Positions 10,425 to 18,276 of a DNA stretch of 40,908 nt are shown here, one piece after another. This stretch comes from Myxococcales bacterium (lineage in GTDB: Bacteria > Myxococcota_A > UBA9160 > SMWR01): assembly GCA_029881215.1 (NCBI GenBank), contig JAOUNA010000007.1, positions 1 to 40,908 of the forward strand, written 5' to 3'. Within the stretch, counting starts at the first letter, position 1. Each line of letters begins with the position of its first letter. A program made the position numbers and the translations under genes. A model generated the notes under the pieces. It was not told where the DNA came from, searched no databases, and saw only the letters and a list, made by a program, of their open reading frames with translations.

Positions 10425-11951
10425 TCAGAGCACGCGGCGCGTCTCGGGGAAGCTGCGCCACACCGGGATTCCGCAAAAGTGGGCGCCCTCCGTGCAGCGC
10501 GGGCGCGCCAGGCCCGAGCGCACGAAGCAGGGCGGACCCACGTGCTCGACGAGCTTCGGCTGCACGGCGCGCACCTGCTCGATCTCCTCCATCGACGCCT
10601 GCCAGATCTCCCACTGCGCGTTCAGGCAGCTGCGCATGGTCCACTTGTGCAGCAGATCCAGCAGCGTCCCAGATTCTTCGAAACGCACGGCGAGCGCGTT
10701 CGGGAGCACGTAGAGCGCGAGGCGCGGGTCCACGCCGCGGGCGAGCAGCTGCGCGCGCGCCTCCCACTGCGCTTCCACGACCTCCCGGAAGAGCCCGTGG
10801 CAGGCGGGGTCGCTGCGGATCAGCTCGGGCTCCACCACGTCCACCCCGGCAGGCACGGTGCGCGAGAGCAGCGGGCGCGAGCCGGGCACGGTGCGATGGC
10901 GCTGATCCTGGGAATCCGCCGTGTGCGACAGCTTCTTGCGAAAGACGAAGTGCGCGTGCGCCAGGCTGCGCATCAGCGGCGCGTGCGTCGAGACGTTGAG
11001 CCGCTCGAGCCGATAGGGATTGCGCGCGGGGTCGAGCACCAGATCGAGGGCCTCCGCGTCGGAGAGGTCCGCGCGCCCGAGAACGTGGCGAACGGCATCC
11101 GCGATCGCTTCCGGAGCCCGCGCGCCGAAGCCCACCAGGCGCGCCGTGCGACCATCGAGCGACTTGTCGAAGGCCTCGAGAACGGCCGGATCGCCCAGGC
11201 CGGGCGGCGCGAGCCGCTCCTCGACGATCTCTGCCGCTTCGAGCGGAGGCTGTCCGACGCTGCGGAAGAAGTTCGGATCGGCTTGCTCGACCTCGGCCAC
11301 CATGCGCTGCACCACGTCGAGCGCCTCGTCGGGGACGTCGCCGACCCGCGCCATGCGCCGCAGCCGGTGCAGCACGAGACCCGAAACGGTGTATACCATG
11401 GCGGTGTGGCACGCGATGGGAATCACGTAGCGCGCCGTCTCGATCGCCTTCTTCTCCGCCTCGCGCGCCACGCTCTTGCCGAACGCGGCGTTCTGACGGT
11501 CCTGCAGGCGCCAGAGGGCCGCGAGGCGCGCGTGGGCGAGCGGCGCGAGCCGCGCAGCCAGCGCGGCGTAGCCCTGCCAGGCGCGCTCGATGCAAGCCGT
11601 GTAGATGCCGCGGGCCTCGCCCGCGAGTGCCGGCGGAACGTGGGCCGCCACCTCGTCGAGGCGCACGTAGCGCTGGCTCTGCTGCTCGGTGTTGTAGAAG
11701 GGGAAGCTGTGCAGGAACGACCAGACCAGCTGACGCGAGACCCCCGAAATCGCGAACTCGAAGCTGGCGTGTTGGAAGACGGTGTGGTGGCCGCCCTCGA
11801 AGGTGAGGGGGCCGATGCGGCGCCGCTGGGGCTCGGTGATCTCGTCGCTCTCGATGACGCGCGGCGAGTAGCAGGTGCGGGCGGCGGCGATCGCGCCGTC
11901 GTAGGGGCTGTTCGTCGCGCTGCGCAGGCGGACCCTGGGTCCGCGATCCAT
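10425..11951 (-). CDS. thyX: Flavin-dependent thymidylate synthase, tandem double-domain form
   Basis: ThyX makes dTMP from dUMP using methylenetetrahydrofolate, FAD and NADPH. This 508-residue protein is about twice the usual length and holds two ThyX-like halves. The first half has FEGGHHTVFQHASFEF and the NTEQQSQRY part of the signature (residues 87-95), but its RHR triad reads LHS (80-82). The second half has the missing RHR in DQRHRTVP (351-353) but no SQRY. Each half also has a recognisable ThyX C-terminal segment (ARYVIP near 173, LYVLP near 413). The ATG at 11951 is used. An in-frame TTG at 11960 with GGGAG closer upstream is an alternative. It heads the operon with the GNAT and aminotransferase genes. 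Confidence 0.86.
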   Translation of the reverse strand: MDRGPRVRLRSATNSPYDGAIAAARTCYSPRVIESDEITEPQRRRIGPLTFEGGHHTVFQHASFEFAISGVSRQLVWSFLHSFPFYNTEQQSQRYVRLDEVAAHVPPALAGEARGIYTACIERAWQGYAALAARLAPLAHARLAALWRLQDRQNAAFGKSVAREAEKKAIETARYVIPIACHTAMVYTVSGLVLHRLRRMARVGDVPDEALDVVQRMVAEVEQADPNFFRSVGQPPLEAAEIVEERLAPPGLGDPAVLEAFDKSLDGRTARLVGFGARAPEAIADAVRHVLGRADLSDAEALDLVLDPARNPYRLERLNVSTHAPLMRSLAHAHFVFRKKLSHTADSQDQRHRTVPGSRPLLSRTVPAGVDVVEPELIRSDPACHGLFREVVEAQWEARAQLLARGVDPRLALYVLPNALAVRFEESGTLLDLLHKWTMRSCLNAQWEIWQASMEEIEQVRAVQPKLVEHVGPPCFVRSGLARPRCTEGAHFCGIPVWRSFPETRRVL

Positions 11952-12172
11952 CACCGCCAAGGAATCTCCCTTGCGCGGCGTCCTTCCGCGCCGCGTGGCG
12001 TCCCCCCCGACCTCCTGGCCGATCCGATGCGAAGCCCGAACGTCGACGCCTACTCTTGCAGACCCGCGCGCTCGTTGCGAGGGCAAAAGATTTCCCATTC
12101 TGACCCGCGGAGTCTCCTTCCGCGGACCCGCTACGCGAGCTCATCGGCCGCAGCCCGAGCGCAGACTTCGCT

Positions 12173-12229: not shown

Positions 12230-12246
12230 TTGGCACAGGGCTTGCC
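12230..12246 (+). promoter_or_regulatory. Sigma-54 (-24/-12) promoter
   Basis: TTGGCACAGGGCTTGCC matches the sigma-54 consensus TTGGCACR-N4-TTGCW at every position except the last. The GG (12232-12233) and GC (12244-12245) have the required spacing. The expected transcription start is near 12257. That lies after an upstream in-frame ATG at 12252, so it supports translation starting at 12288. Confidence 0.78.
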
Positions 12247-12287: not shown

Positions 12288-14231
12288 ATGTCCCGCCTAT
12301 GGATCGTCCATCGCGACCAGCGCCAGCGCTCCGCTCTGGCCCGTCTCGCTGCAGCTTCGGAGGACGCCGTGCTCGGCGCCCCGGGCGAGCCTCGCTTCGA
12401 CGCGGCCCCGCCGGCCGAGGTGATCCTGCTCGGTCTGGGCGACGATTGGGAGCTCGAGCTCGAGTACGCGCACAGCGTCCGGCGCCGAGCTCGCGACGCG
12501 CACTGGATCCTGATCGGCGCGCCGCGCAGCGGCGACGCCGCGCTGCGCTGCTTCGACACGCTGCGCGCCGAATTTCTCGCCTATCCCCCGACGCCGGACG
12601 TGCTGCGCGAGCGCATTCGCGCTGCGCGGCGCCCCGCCGCGCCGACGCTCTCCCAGCGTGCGGGCCGCGAGGCCGTTGCCGAGCGCTTCTCGCGCTGGTT
12701 CTCCGATCTCGAGCTGCCGGAGCTGCTGCGCGCCCTCGATCCCCGACTCGCCGACGTCACGCTGCTGATCCGCGGAGAGCCGGGCACGGGGCGCAGCCTG
12801 CTCGCCCAATACGTGCACCTCTTCGGCGGAACGGCCGCGGGCGTCTTCGTGCGCGTGCCGTGCGCCGAAGCCACGCGCGCGGACGAAATCCTCGCAGCGA
12901 TCGAGCAGGCCGGAAGCCGCGCGGCGACGCCCGCCGCGCTCGCGATCTGCCTCGAGAATGTGGAGCGCCTCGCGCCGTCGATACAGGCACTCGTCTGCGA
13001 CTGGATCGAGCTGGGGCTCCCGCCGGGCGTGGTGCGCGCGCCGCGCTTGCGCTGGATGGGCACCGGCGGCGACGCAGACGCGCAGCTCCAGCCGGATGCG
13101 GGGCTGTGCCGAGCGCTCTCCGAGCTCAGCATCCGATTGCCTCCGCTGCGCGAGCGACCCCATCTGATCGACGTGGTCACCCGGGCGGTCACGCGCGCCT
13201 GGTGCGAGACGCGCCGCGAGCGATCCCGGCGCTTCGGCGAGGATGCGCTGGCGGTGATGGAGGAATATCCCTGGCCGGGGAATCTGCGCGAGCTCGAGGC
13301 CCTCGTGGTGCAGACCCTCGCCTGCAGCACCTCGGATCCGGTTCGCTCGGACGATCTGCAGTGCAATGGGCGGGCGTTCTCCCCGCTCCTGCCGAGCGAG
13401 ATCGGCGGGCGCGAGCACGACGATTCTTCGGCCGAGCGCGCCGTTGCCAGCGCCTCCGCCGAGGGCATGGCGCGACACGAAATTGCGATTCGTCGGGTGG
13501 AGGATGTGAGCGCCGCAGCGCCGCGGCCGAGCGCTGCGCCCGAGGCCGCGGCTGCGCAGCGCGCGGCGCCGGTCGACGAGATCTCGCTCGCGCGCCTCGT
13601 GGCGTCGCTCTCCCACGAGGTGCGCAATCCGCTCGCCACCCTCCGCACCTTCGCGGAGCTGCTGCCCGAGCGCTTCGCGGACCCCGAGTTCCGCAACCGC
13701 TTCGCGAAGGTGGTGAGTCAGGATGTCGAGCGCATCGACGCGCTCGTCGAGCAGCTCGGCCGGCTCTCCGATCTCCAGGCACCCAAGCACGAGACCGTGA
13801 ACCTCTCCGACCTGCTCGAGCAGTTGCTCGACGCGCGCGAGGAGACGATCCGGAACAGGCGTTTGCTCGTGCTGAAGGAGCTCGACGCGGAGCGGTCGAT
13901 GGTCGTCGCAGATCGCGAGCAGCTGCGCTTTGCCTTCGACGCGCTGCTCGGAAGGTCGCTCGAGCTGGTTCCCGAGCGCGGCGACGTCTACCTCGCGTCC
14001 CGTTACCACAACGGAGAGCCGGCGCACCCGCCGTCCGTGCGCGTGCTGCTGCGCTTCCACGACCCGGAGAGCGTGGGCTCCGCCAGCCCGGCGCCGGGTC
14101 TCTCCGTCGCGGAGAACTCCCTCGAGCTCACGGTCGCGGAGCTCGTCATTCGCGCCCAGGGCGGGCGCTTCGCCCTCACCAGCAGCGAGGGCAAGGAGAC
14201 GGTCATCGTCGTGGATCTCCCGGCGCGCTGA
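12288..14231 (+). CDS. Composite pseudo-receiver / pseudo-AAA+ / histidine-kinase-like protein
   Basis: Three degenerate signalling domains are fused in 647 residues. Residues 1-115 follow the receiver fold, but the aspartate site reads LLGLGDD and the lysine site AYPPTP. Residues 135-345 resemble a sigma-54 activator AAA+ domain. A Walker A-like GEPGTGRS (163-170), SIRLPPLRER and YPWPGNLREL are kept. The ESELFGHE/GAFTGA region is missing and Walker B reads CLENVE. After an alanine-rich linker comes an intact H-box, SLSHEVRNPLATL with His443. The region where the ATP-binding domain should be lacks the N-box asparagine and the G-boxes, though it ends in a kinase-like ETVIVVDLP. It probably works as a phosphotransfer or scaffold protein rather than as a kinase or an ATPase. 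The ATG at 12288 fits the sigma-54 start site. It precedes the NtrC-type gene by 60 bases. Confidence 0.85.
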   Translation: MSRLWIVHRDQRQRSALARLAAASEDAVLGAPGEPRFDAAPPAEVILLGLGDDWELELEYAHSVRRRARDAHWILIGAPRSGDAALRCFDTLRAEFLAYPPTPDVLRERIRAARRPAAPTLSQRAGREAVAERFSRWFSDLELPELLRALDPRLADVTLLIRGEPGTGRSLLAQYVHLFGGTAAGVFVRVPCAEATRADEILAAIEQAGSRAATPAALAICLENVERLAPSIQALVCDWIELGLPPGVVRAPRLRWMGTGGDADAQLQPDAGLCRALSELSIRLPPLRERPHLIDVVTRAVTRAWCETRRERSRRFGEDALAVMEEYPWPGNLRELEALVVQTLACSTSDPVRSDDLQCNGRAFSPLLPSEIGGREHDDSSAERAVASASAEGMARHEIAIRRVEDVSAAAPRPSAAPEAAAAQRAAPVDEISLARLVASLSHEVRNPLATLRTFAELLPERFADPEFRNRFAKVVSQDVERIDALVEQLGRLSDLQAPKHETVNLSDLLEQLLDAREETIRNRRLLVLKELDAERSMVVADREQLRFAFDALLGRSLELVPERGDVYLASRYHNGEPAHPPSVRVLLRFHDPESVGSASPAPGLSVAENSLELTVAELVIRAQGGRFALTSSEGKETVIVVDLPAR

Positions 14232-14291: not shown

Positions 14292-15662
<1,371 letters not shown>

Positions 15663-15807: not shown

Positions 15808-15891
15808 TCTCGCTGCGCTGCTCTCCCGCCTCCAGAGAAAAAAGTTTTGTGATCTCGGACACATAGCGTGGCGTGGCGAGAGGGCACCGGG

Positions 15892-15908
15892 GCGGCACGC
15901 CTCTTGCG
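15892..15908 (+). promoter_or_regulatory. Sigma-54 (-24/-12) promoter of the HD-GYP regulator gene
   Basis: GCGGCACGCCTCTTGCG fits TTGGCACG-N4-TTGCW with GGCACG and TTGC intact and correctly spaced. GG is at 15894-15895 and GC at 15906-15907. Transcription would begin near 15919, leaving about 24 bases of leader containing the ribosome-binding site AGGTGG before the ATG at 15943. Confidence 0.72.
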
Positions 15909-15942
15909 AAGGCTGGAATGCAATCCGCACACGAGGTGGGCC

Positions 15943-17118
15943 ATGGCAACCAGGAAGCCGCGCGTGACCGTCCTGATCGTCGACGACGAACGCGGACCCC
16001 GGGATTCGCTGCGCATGCTGCTGGCATCCAGCTACGAAGTCCTCACGGCGGGCAGCGGCGCGCAGGCTCTCGACATCCTGCGCACCACCCCGGTGGATGT
16101 GGTGACGCTCGACCTGAACATGCCGGGCATCGACGGACAGACGCTGATGCGCACCATGCACCACGAGTGCCCCCACGTGGAGATCATCGTGATCACCGGC
16201 TGCGCCACGATTGCCAGCGCCCAGGAGGGGATTCGCAACGGCATCTGCGACTACCTGCAGAAGCCCTTCGACGTGGTCCAGGTGACCGCCGCCGTGCGGC
16301 GGGCCGTGCAGCGGGGCAGCGCGCGGCGCGGGCTCGTGGCGTTTCTCGAGGAGCTCGGTGCGGTGGTCGGGCGCGATCGCGACACGCAGCGCATCCTGAC
16401 GGAAATCCAGCGCAGCCAGAAGATGCGCGGGAAGCTCAGCGGCCTGCTCGACGCGCACGGTCACCTCGAGCTGGCACAGGTGGAGAAGGACGCCGACTGC
16501 ACCCTCCAGTTCCTGGAGGTGCTGGCGGAGACCATCGAGCTGAACGACAGCGGCATGCGCGGCCACGCGCGCCGCGTTGCCTTCTACGCCGGAATGATCG
16601 CGGACCGCATGAATCTCTCCCTCGAGGAGCAGGAGCGCGTGCGGATCGCCGCCTTCCTGCACGACCTCGGCAAGGTGGGCGTGCCCACGGATCTGATGTT
16701 GCGGCCGTCGTCCCTCAGCGCCGCCGAGCGCGCCCTCGTGGAGCGCCATCCCGTGATCGGCGCGCGCATGCTCGCGCCGCTGGATCTTCCCGGATCGATC
16801 GCTGAGGCGATCCATCACCACCACGAGTGGTGGGACGGCAGCGGCTATCCCGACGGCATCGCCGGCGACGAGATCCCGCTCATCTCCCGCATCATCGGTG
16901 TGGCGGACGCCTTCGATGCGATGAGCAGCGATCGACCCTACCGGCCGGCGCTGTCACGGCCGGTCGTGGTCGACGAGCTCCGGCGCTTCACCGGACGCCA
17001 GTTCGATCCGGACATCGCCAAGGAGTTCCTGGCGATCCTCGAAACGGCCGTCGAGGACCTGGATCTGACGCTGCTCGCCGACGCCTCCGGCGGCCCGGCG
17101 CAGGCGCCCCCGGGCTAG
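15943..17118 (+). CDS. Response regulator with HD-GYP domain (c-di-GMP phosphodiesterase)
   Basis: A receiver (residues 5-122; Asp57 in TLDLNMPG, Lys107) is joined by a helical linker to an HD-GYP domain (about 190-375). The HD pair is His240-Asp241 in FLHDLGKVGVP. The metal- and substrate-binding HHHHEWWDGSGYP segment (291-303) and the following DAFDAMSSDRPYR are intact. It should therefore break down cyclic di-GMP under phosphorylation control. The ATG at 15943 has AGGTGG four bases upstream and fits the sigma-54 start site. An upstream in-frame GTG or ATG would fall before or at that start. The length of 391 residues is typical of RpfG-like proteins. It lies 65 bases before tatB but probably belongs functionally with the regulators upstream. 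Confidence 0.93.
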   Translation: MATRKPRVTVLIVDDERGPRDSLRMLLASSYEVLTAGSGAQALDILRTTPVDVVTLDLNMPGIDGQTLMRTMHHECPHVEIIVITGCATIASAQEGIRNGICDYLQKPFDVVQVTAAVRRAVQRGSARRGLVAFLEELGAVVGRDRDTQRILTEIQRSQKMRGKLSGLLDAHGHLELAQVEKDADCTLQFLEVLAETIELNDSGMRGHARRVAFYAGMIADRMNLSLEEQERVRIAAFLHDLGKVGVPTDLMLRPSSLSAAERALVERHPVIGARMLAPLDLPGSIAEAIHHHHEWWDGSGYPDGIAGDEIPLISRIIGVADAFDAMSSDRPYRPALSRPVVVDELRRFTGRQFDPDIAKEFLAILETAVEDLDLTLLADASGGPAQAPPG

Positions 17119-17183: not shown

Positions 17184-17537
17184 ATGTTCGGCATTGGGAT
17201 GACGGAGCTTCTGGTGATCTTCGTGATCGGGCTGCTGGTGCTCGGTCCGAAGCGGCTGCCGGATCTCGCCCGCTCGCTCGGGCGCAGCCTGGCCGAGTTC
17301 CGGCGCGCGTCCAACGATCTGCGCCGCGAGTTCATGGACGTGGCGGAAGACGTGCGCGTCGAGCCGCTCGAGCTGCCGAAGCCGCGCCCGCCCCAGAAGA
17401 AGCAGGCCGAAGTCGAGGCGACCGGGGCCGCGACCGCCGCAGCGCCGCAGGCACAGCCCGACACGGACGGGACCGCGGAGGCGCGCGAGACCCGCCCGCC
17501 CGGCGCAGCTCCCTCCGACGCGACGCACAATGGATGA
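17184..17537 (+). CDS. tatB: Sec-independent (Tat) translocase protein TatA/TatB
   Basis: This is a single-span inner-membrane subunit of the twin-arginine translocase, which exports folded proteins. It starts [20 protein letters not shown], followed by the hinge [16 protein letters not shown] and an amphipathic helix, then a polar proline- and alanine-rich tail to residue 117. The glutamate at position 8 and the length favour TatB over TatA, but the two are not always separable by sequence. Its last eight bases overlap tatC. No separate tatA is in the window, so this protein might serve both roles, or tatA lies elsewhere. Confidence 0.9.
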
Positions 17538-18276
17538 CGCGCGGCTTCCCATCGCCGAGCACCTCGCGGAGCTGCGCTCGCGCATCTTTCGCATCCTGAT
17601 CGCGTGGGCGCTGGGCTGCGCGCTCGCCTGGAACTTCAGCGAGCAGGTCTTCGGGCTCCTGATCGCACCGGCGGTGGACGCGCTCGGCGCCGGGCACACC
17701 CTGCAGGCCATCGCGCCCACCGAGGTCTTCTTCACCTACCTCAAGTGTGCCGTGCTGGCCGGCTTCGTCATCGCGCTGCCCGTGGTCTTCTGGCAGATCT
17801 GGGCGTTCGTCGCGCCCGGGCTCTACCCGAACGAGCGCAGCGCGATCCTGCCCTTCGTGCTGGTCTCGACCCTGCTCTTCGCCGGCGGCGCCATCTTCGG
17901 CTACACGCAGGTCTTTCCCCTGATGTTCTCCTTCTTCAGCAGCTTCGACAGCGCGTTCGTCGAGTCGGCCTGGACGATGCGCGAGGTCTTCGGCCTGACC
18001 ACGCGCCTGTTTCTCGCCTTCGGCGTGGCCTTCGAGCTGCCGGTCTTCGTCTTCTTCCTCTCGGTCGCGGGGATCGTGGATGCACCCACGCTGCTGCGCA
18101 GCACGCCCTACGCGGTGCTCGGGGTCTTCGTGGCGGCGGCCCTGCTCACCCCGCCCGACTGGGTGAGCCAGGTCTTCCTCGCCGTTCCGATGGTGGCGCT
18201 CTACTTGGTGGGTGTCGGGGTGGCGTACCTGTTCGGCGGCTCGCGGGCGCGCGCCAAGACCCGGAGCGCGGTGTAG
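17530..18276 (+). CDS. tatC: Twin-arginine translocase subunit TatC
   Basis: The 248-residue multispan protein recognises twin-arginine signal peptides. It has the N-terminal [15 protein letters not shown] motif, the [12 protein letters not shown] segment, [12 protein letters not shown] with the conserved family Glu, and a [12 protein letters not shown]-like helix containing the conserved glutamate. Six membrane spans can be traced. The start at 17530 overlaps the tatB stop by eight bases, indicating coupled translation. The gene ends 41 bases before the convergent carboxylase gene, with no clear terminator in between. Confidence 0.95.

Follow-up and report, generated by a model that had tools for sequence, protein, structure and literature searches.

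A probable kinase-dead NtrC-NtrB-like fusion protein whose key DHp residues are retained together with an NtrC-type regulator

The locus described here poses the question of what a protein built from three signalling modules may still do when each module has lost its catalytic residues. The window (the whole stretch of DNA that was analysed, 40,908 nucleotides) encodes a 647-residue protein of this kind. An initial annotation, made from the sequence of the window, noted that losses in all three modules coexist with a preserved phosphoacceptor histidine, and proposed selection for a scaffold or phosphotransfer role. The features of the protein are as follows:

12288 to 14231, + strand: degenerate receiver-AAA+-DHp-CA protein (open reading frame of 647 aa)
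12288 to 12641, + strand: receiver-like domain, residues 1-118, without the phosphorylation Asp, the acidic pair and the Lys (fold, alignment columns)
12645 to 13367, + strand: NtrC-type AAA+-like domain with lid, residues 120-360, without GAFTGA and with an irregular Walker B (Pfam, AlphaFold2, Foldseek)
12774 to 12797, + strand: Walker A-like GEPGTGRS, residues 163-170, with Lys replaced by Arg (alignment)
13407 to 13568, + strand: disordered linker, residues 374-427 (pLDDT <50)
13572 to 13769, + strand: HisKA/DHp helical hairpin, residues 429-494 (Pfam HisKA, 1.8e-12; models)
13614 to 13616, + strand: codon of His443, the phosphoacceptor position (present in 58/58 genomes with an NtrC ortholog and 3/16 without)
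13626 to 13628, + strand: codon of Asn447 (His+4), the HisKA phosphatase residue (58/58 with an NtrC ortholog, 4/16 without)
13647 to 13649, + strand: codon of Thr454 (His+11), a partner-specificity position of HisKA kinases, equivalent to EnvZ L254
13791 to 14225, + strand: ATPase-like (CA) domain, residues 502-646, without N-box and G-boxes (models, alignment columns)

Architecture, catalytic losses and conservation

The composition proposed in the initial annotation (receiver, sigma-54-activator AAA+ and histidine kinase-like parts) is one on which Pfam, AlphaFold2 and Foldseek agree. Pfam matches were obtained for Sigma54_activat (5e-5, partial), AAA_lid_14 (6e-10) and HisKA; the receiver and HATPase_c parts gave none, and no family spanning the entire protein was found in Pfam and NCBIfam. 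The AlphaFold2 model, built from 61 aligned sequences, has a mean pLDDT of 89 and shows four folded parts: a receiver fold (4-113), an AAA+ fold (121-346), the DHp hairpin (429-494) and a CA fold (502-646). Foldseek matched the N-terminal half to the receiver-AAA+ structures of NtrC1, NtrX, VpsR and FleQ, and the C-terminal half to the DHp-CA structures of HK853, DivL and RetS. The C-terminus is a kinase core without an HTH, as seen both by Pfam and by AlphaFold2. A chance domain annotation is ruled out by AlphaFold2 and Foldseek.

The losses first read from the window turned out to be shared by the whole protein family. Alignment columns confirm that the receiver lacks its Asp and Lys, and the acidic pair is missing family-wide as well. 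In the AAA+ part GAFTGA is gone and the Walker B is irregular (ICLENVERL); a further change, overlooked initially, is that the Walker A Lys position is occupied by Arg in 73 of 78 orthologs. The CA domain lacks the G1 and G2 boxes, with a variable G1 Asp column, and none of the orthologs in the class has an N-box. Because no family member has regained it, the losses cannot be attributed to chance decay of one copy. The DHp motif reads H443-E-V-R-N447-P in the window protein, in agreement with the HExxNP motif noted before, and fits HE/DxxT/N; the acidic residue that follows His443 is replaced by Ala in four related species and by Asp in two. A DHp with a conserved His next to a CA-like domain devoid of ATP-binding motifs is therefore found, conditional on the presence of NtrC (see below).

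Distribution of the protein was examined in 91 genomes of the window's class, 43 of them of good quality. At a threshold of E<=1e-20, matches were found in 82 of the 91 and in 41 of the 43. A profile search in 284 genomes of the phylum confined full-length matches to the class; the sole match outside covers the receiver/AAA+ part only. Orthologs are open, full-length frames that share roughly 25-52% identity across the class, and Arg124, Gly166, Trp329 and Arg589 are invariant. Intact catalytic motifs are absent from every homolog in the class, and the same losses recur throughout. Hence, as judged from sequence comparison, the 647-aa protein is an old, maintained, catalytically dead fusion rather than a broken kinase. 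A functionless pseudogene or decaying kinase, which the many missing motifs might bring to mind, can be practically dismissed: class-wide orthologs refute decay, the frames are open and full-length at such divergence, the four residues above are invariant, a promoter-like site is conserved, and the AlphaFold2 folds are confident.

The NtrC neighbour and its coupling to the DHp face

Downstream of the gene, the window contains the following:

14292 to 15662, + strand: response regulator of NtrC type; receiver quintet and Walker A/B intact, HTH of Fis type, GAFTDA in place of GAFTGA
15868 to 17118, + strand: response regulator with HD-GYP domain (c-di-GMP phosphodiesterase type), the usual next gene
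17184 to 17537, + strand: TatA, conserved downstream neighbour
17530 to 18276, + strand: TatC, conserved downstream neighbour

A gap of 60 bases separates the fusion gene from the NtrC gene, as initially described. The regulator had been called intact, which needs a correction: GAFTDA replaces GAFTGA in the window species (residues 216-221). Among 56 NtrC orthologs, 28 have GAFTDA and 22 GAFTGA, and receiver residues D8, D9, D51 and K101 are intact in all 56. In most of the taxonomic order to which the window belongs, the genes lie on the same strand: the 647-aa protein, NtrC, often the HD-GYP regulator, often PilZ, and finally TatA and TatC. A PilZ-domain gene is found upstream of TatA in 48 loci (e.g., L059); in the window, no such gene separates HD-GYP from TatA. 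The arrangement is different in the sister family f12, where a gene of about 190 codons comes next (9/9 loci, e.g., L042, L040 and L045), followed by TatA-TatC, with NtrC and HD-GYP absent. The protein encoded by the 190-codon gene has no significant Pfam match.

Presence of NtrC was scored by bit score: orthologs scored 516 bits or more and paralogs never exceeded 421, a gap that makes the calls unambiguous save at contig ends and broken frames. Four genomes were excluded for the latter reasons, and two more because they contain only the C-terminal half of the protein. The scorable set comprised 74 genomes, 58 with an NtrC ortholog and 16 without. NtrC lies directly downstream in most of the 58 and elsewhere in a few (14 kb away in G021, on another contig, or frameshifted in G025). 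The NtrC-less genomes are the nine of f12 plus G033, G043, G002 and G011, G003 and G012, and G007, and they represent five or more losses within the order, besides the sister family.

The counts for His443 and Asn447 given above reveal a clear association: both residues are present whenever NtrC is, and both are rare when NtrC is missing. Thr454 is found in 55/58 genomes with NtrC and in 2/7 NtrC-less genomes inside the order; all nine sister-family genomes keep it. The NtrC-less genomes that preserve His are G002, G012 and G082, two of which have Glu or Asn changed. A test of dependent evolution between His443 and NtrC, using a tree that excluded the DHp region, gave LR 29.0 and p about 8e-6, a value to be read as approximate since the topology came from FastTree and some fitted rates were at bounds. 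Within the order alone, and with one extra parameter, LR was 23.9 for His443, 13.9 for Thr454 and 11.7 for Asn447, the top three of the conserved positions examined. Of the 51 positions that are otherwise conserved, none is lost more often in the absence of NtrC than His443, and none shows a stronger coupling. Mean retention of the 51 positions in NtrC-less species is 85% in the order and 71% in f12; other conserved positions are thus mostly kept, and general relaxation is insufficient to explain the loss of His443. As the genes share an operon, the loss of NtrC and a relaxed DHp face could in part go back to a single local event.

The HD-GYP regulator was considered as a partner and dismissed, since retention of His parallels NtrC but not HD-GYP: in G007, HD-GYP persists, NtrC is gone and position 443 is Arg, and His is kept at all 14 loci where no HD-GYP gene separates NtrC from TatA.

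His443 is not universally conserved, as the sister family and several other species have lost it. The role proposed initially must be qualified accordingly. Selection for it is supported by class-wide conservation, by retention of His in most orthologs while catalytic residues are lost, and by the tie between His443 and NtrC, which lends specific support to NtrC as the partner. However, f12 has kept the protein despite losing NtrC and, in 8/9 genomes, His (mostly replaced by Gln), so a His-independent role probably exists as well.

Proposed function and alternative explanations

Studies on HisKA proteins provide a guide to the residues involved. Kinase action alone requires the acidic residue that follows His, and phosphatase action alone the Asn or Thr at His+4 (PMC3510030). 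In CrdS, His is only weakly needed for phosphatase action, which barely decreases upon His to Ala replacement, and an Asn to Ala mutant performs phosphotransfer near normally (PMC3510030). In EnvZ, partner specificity resides at His+7, +11 and +12 (T250, L254 and A255), with L254 as a rewiring site (PMC2991266). The missing ATP site, together with a residue pattern in which His and His+4 are invariant in the presence of NtrC, His+11 is coupled to NtrC within the order and the acidic residue is replaceable, argues against a kinase and in favour of NtrC docking with phosphatase and/or phosphotransfer action. Autokinase activity of the 647-aa protein is, on these grounds, unlikely.

The ancestor may have been an NtrC-type regulator (receiver and AAA+) fused to an NtrB-type kinase core (DHp and CA). 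In the fusion, the receiver would then have ceased to accept phosphate, the AAA+ part to hydrolyse ATP and contact sigma-54, and the CA domain to bind ATP. The four-helix face of the DHp would remain active and dock the receiver of the NtrC encoded by the adjacent gene. There, Asn447 might hydrolyse the phosphoryl group on the receiver Asp, and His443 might accept or donate it in the manner of kinase-dead phosphotransferases and phosphatases. The receiver/AAA+ half, together with the CA fold, would have a second role that needs neither His443 nor NtrC. We regard it as probable that the protein is a kinase-dead NtrC-NtrB-like fusion of this sort, whose HisKA hairpin docks NtrC to remove or relay phosphate and which also has a His-independent role. 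The coupling between His443 and NtrC suggests that a regulator and a kinase have been rebuilt into a phosphate-handling helper for the NtrC switch.

Invariance of both His443 and Asn447 seems a perfect fit to neither a pure phosphatase nor a pure phosphotransfer model, given the behaviour of the CrdS mutants. A dedicated NtrC phosphatase, in which Asn447 positions water, His443 assists and phosphotransfer does not occur, is a possibility of some weight, though below even chances: Asn447 is invariant with NtrC, Glu444 is dispensable, and in CrdS the Asn is needed exclusively for phosphatase action (PMC3510030). Against it, NtrC-less genomes have given up His no less readily than Asn, and His is otherwise absolutely kept, although replacement of the CrdS His by Ala barely affects phosphatase action.

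One-way phosphotransfer to NtrC, with the receiver of a hybrid kinase or of the HD-GYP regulator as donor, in the manner of ChpT or Spo0B, appears rather unlikely. A kinase-dead DHp-CA that keeps its His beside the gene of a partner regulator has precedents in ChpT (PMC3433190) and PhyT (PMC5898713). Yet no constant donor gene adjoins the locus, NtrC and His coexist without HD-GYP in the 14 loci mentioned above, and Asn447 should be dispensable for such a reaction, as the CrdS mutant indicates.

A pseudokinase like DivL or RetS, that is, a sensor or scaffold that binds a phosphorylated regulator or another kinase without phosphate chemistry, is in our opinion improbable for the window protein. 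Among solved structures, DivL and RetS are some of the nearest; in the sister family the DHp fold is preserved, with Gln mostly in place of His, and the protein persists without NtrC. For binding alone, however, invariance of His and Asn is unnecessary: DivL carries Tyr instead of the phosphoacceptor His and shows no phosphatase activity (PMC4211667), whereas His443 is present in the window and in all 58 NtrC-bearing genomes. This explanation fits the sister family better than the window's order. Doubtful to a similar degree is that the protein is a two-headed, class-wide pseudo-regulator whose dead NtrC-like half becomes part of the NtrC AAA+ assembly or caps it, or else is a c-di-GMP sensor like FleQ and VpsR, while the kinase-dead DHp half drains phosphate from the same NtrC, the first half keeping a separate job once NtrC is lost. 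If so, one protein would gate a sigma-54 activator at two levels.

Comparison with known systems helps to place the phosphate-handling fusion that we favour. ChpT likewise combines a HisKA-like DHp dimer and an ATPase-like domain unable to use ATP, with His retained (PMC3433190), but it is a stand-alone DHp-CA protein with CtrA as partner; here, a receiver/AAA+ pseudo-regulator stands in front and the likely partner is of NtrC type. Spo0B and PhyT are described as degenerated histidine kinases that act as phosphotransferases, and PhyT also restrains its own regulator (PMC5898713). Phosphoryl exchange by the 647-aa protein would resemble theirs, although they lack a receiver/AAA+ part, have other partners and differ in DHp motif (HRxxN in PhyT). 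In the NtrB-NtrC and ZraS-ZraR pairs the likeness is distributed: the AAA+ part and lid match NtrC-family structures and the DHp-CA part matches HisKA kinases, but here both halves are dead and fused, and an intact NtrC is encoded separately by the next gene. FleQ and VpsR, which are sigma-54-activator-like and have a degenerate receiver, resemble the receiver/AAA+ half in structure, and c-di-GMP genes (HD-GYP, and PilZ in relatives) lie at the same locus; the 647-aa protein, however, lacks a DNA-binding HTH and has a kinase-like C-terminal half. With DivL and RetS it would share reuse of a regulator-docking surface, the difference being that His and Asn are invariant here while NtrC is present.

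In line with the initial statement that no regulator of this composition is known, a search of the literature for a fusion of degenerate receiver, AAA+ and kinase parts gave no match. Kinase-derived phosphotransferases and pseudokinases (ChpT, Spo0B, PhyT, DivL and RetS) were already known. What is new is the coupling, with its repeated, partner-linked loss of phosphate-handling residues. Every ATP-related motif has already been lost in the family, and His, Asn and a specificity residue vanish repeatedly upon NtrC loss while most of the protein stays. The family thus provides a natural experiment on the roles of DHp residues, and a clear, testable case for phosphatase or phosphotransfer function without kinase function. 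A regulator-kinase fusion would have been recycled into a pure partner-handling protein and fixed across a class of uncultured bacteria.

A sigma-54 promoter-like site and the upstream genes

One further feature lies upstream of the gene:

12231 to 12245, + strand: sigma-54 (-24/-12) promoter-like site TGGCACAGGGCTTGC, a perfect pattern match 42 bases before the start codon

In the window alone, matches to the sigma-54 pattern are not above chance. A site with at most one mismatch is found upstream of 55/61 orthologs in the NtrC-present group, which includes four loci whose NtrC status was left unscored, and of 9/16 NtrC-less ones (p <=0.025 each against shuffled sequences). The genome from which the window derives has a sigma-54 gene and contains eight perfect sites, compared with two for a reversed control pattern. 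Other perfect sites in this genome (L131, L129 and L135) precede genes that were named by eye from their translations as type IV pilin-like, multihaem cytochrome-like and chaperonin-like. Simple autoregulation by the adjacent NtrC is not supported as the sole use of the site: six of the seven NtrC-less genomes of the order keep it perfect, and another activator must therefore be able to use it in those species.

Further upstream, ThyX, GNAT and aminotransferase genes are found on the opposite strand in most of the order. The ThyX-type protein of the window (10425 to 12098, - strand) has 557 aa, about twice the usual length, with two Thy1 stretches, and a ThyX-type gene lies beside the gene of the 647-aa protein in much of the order.
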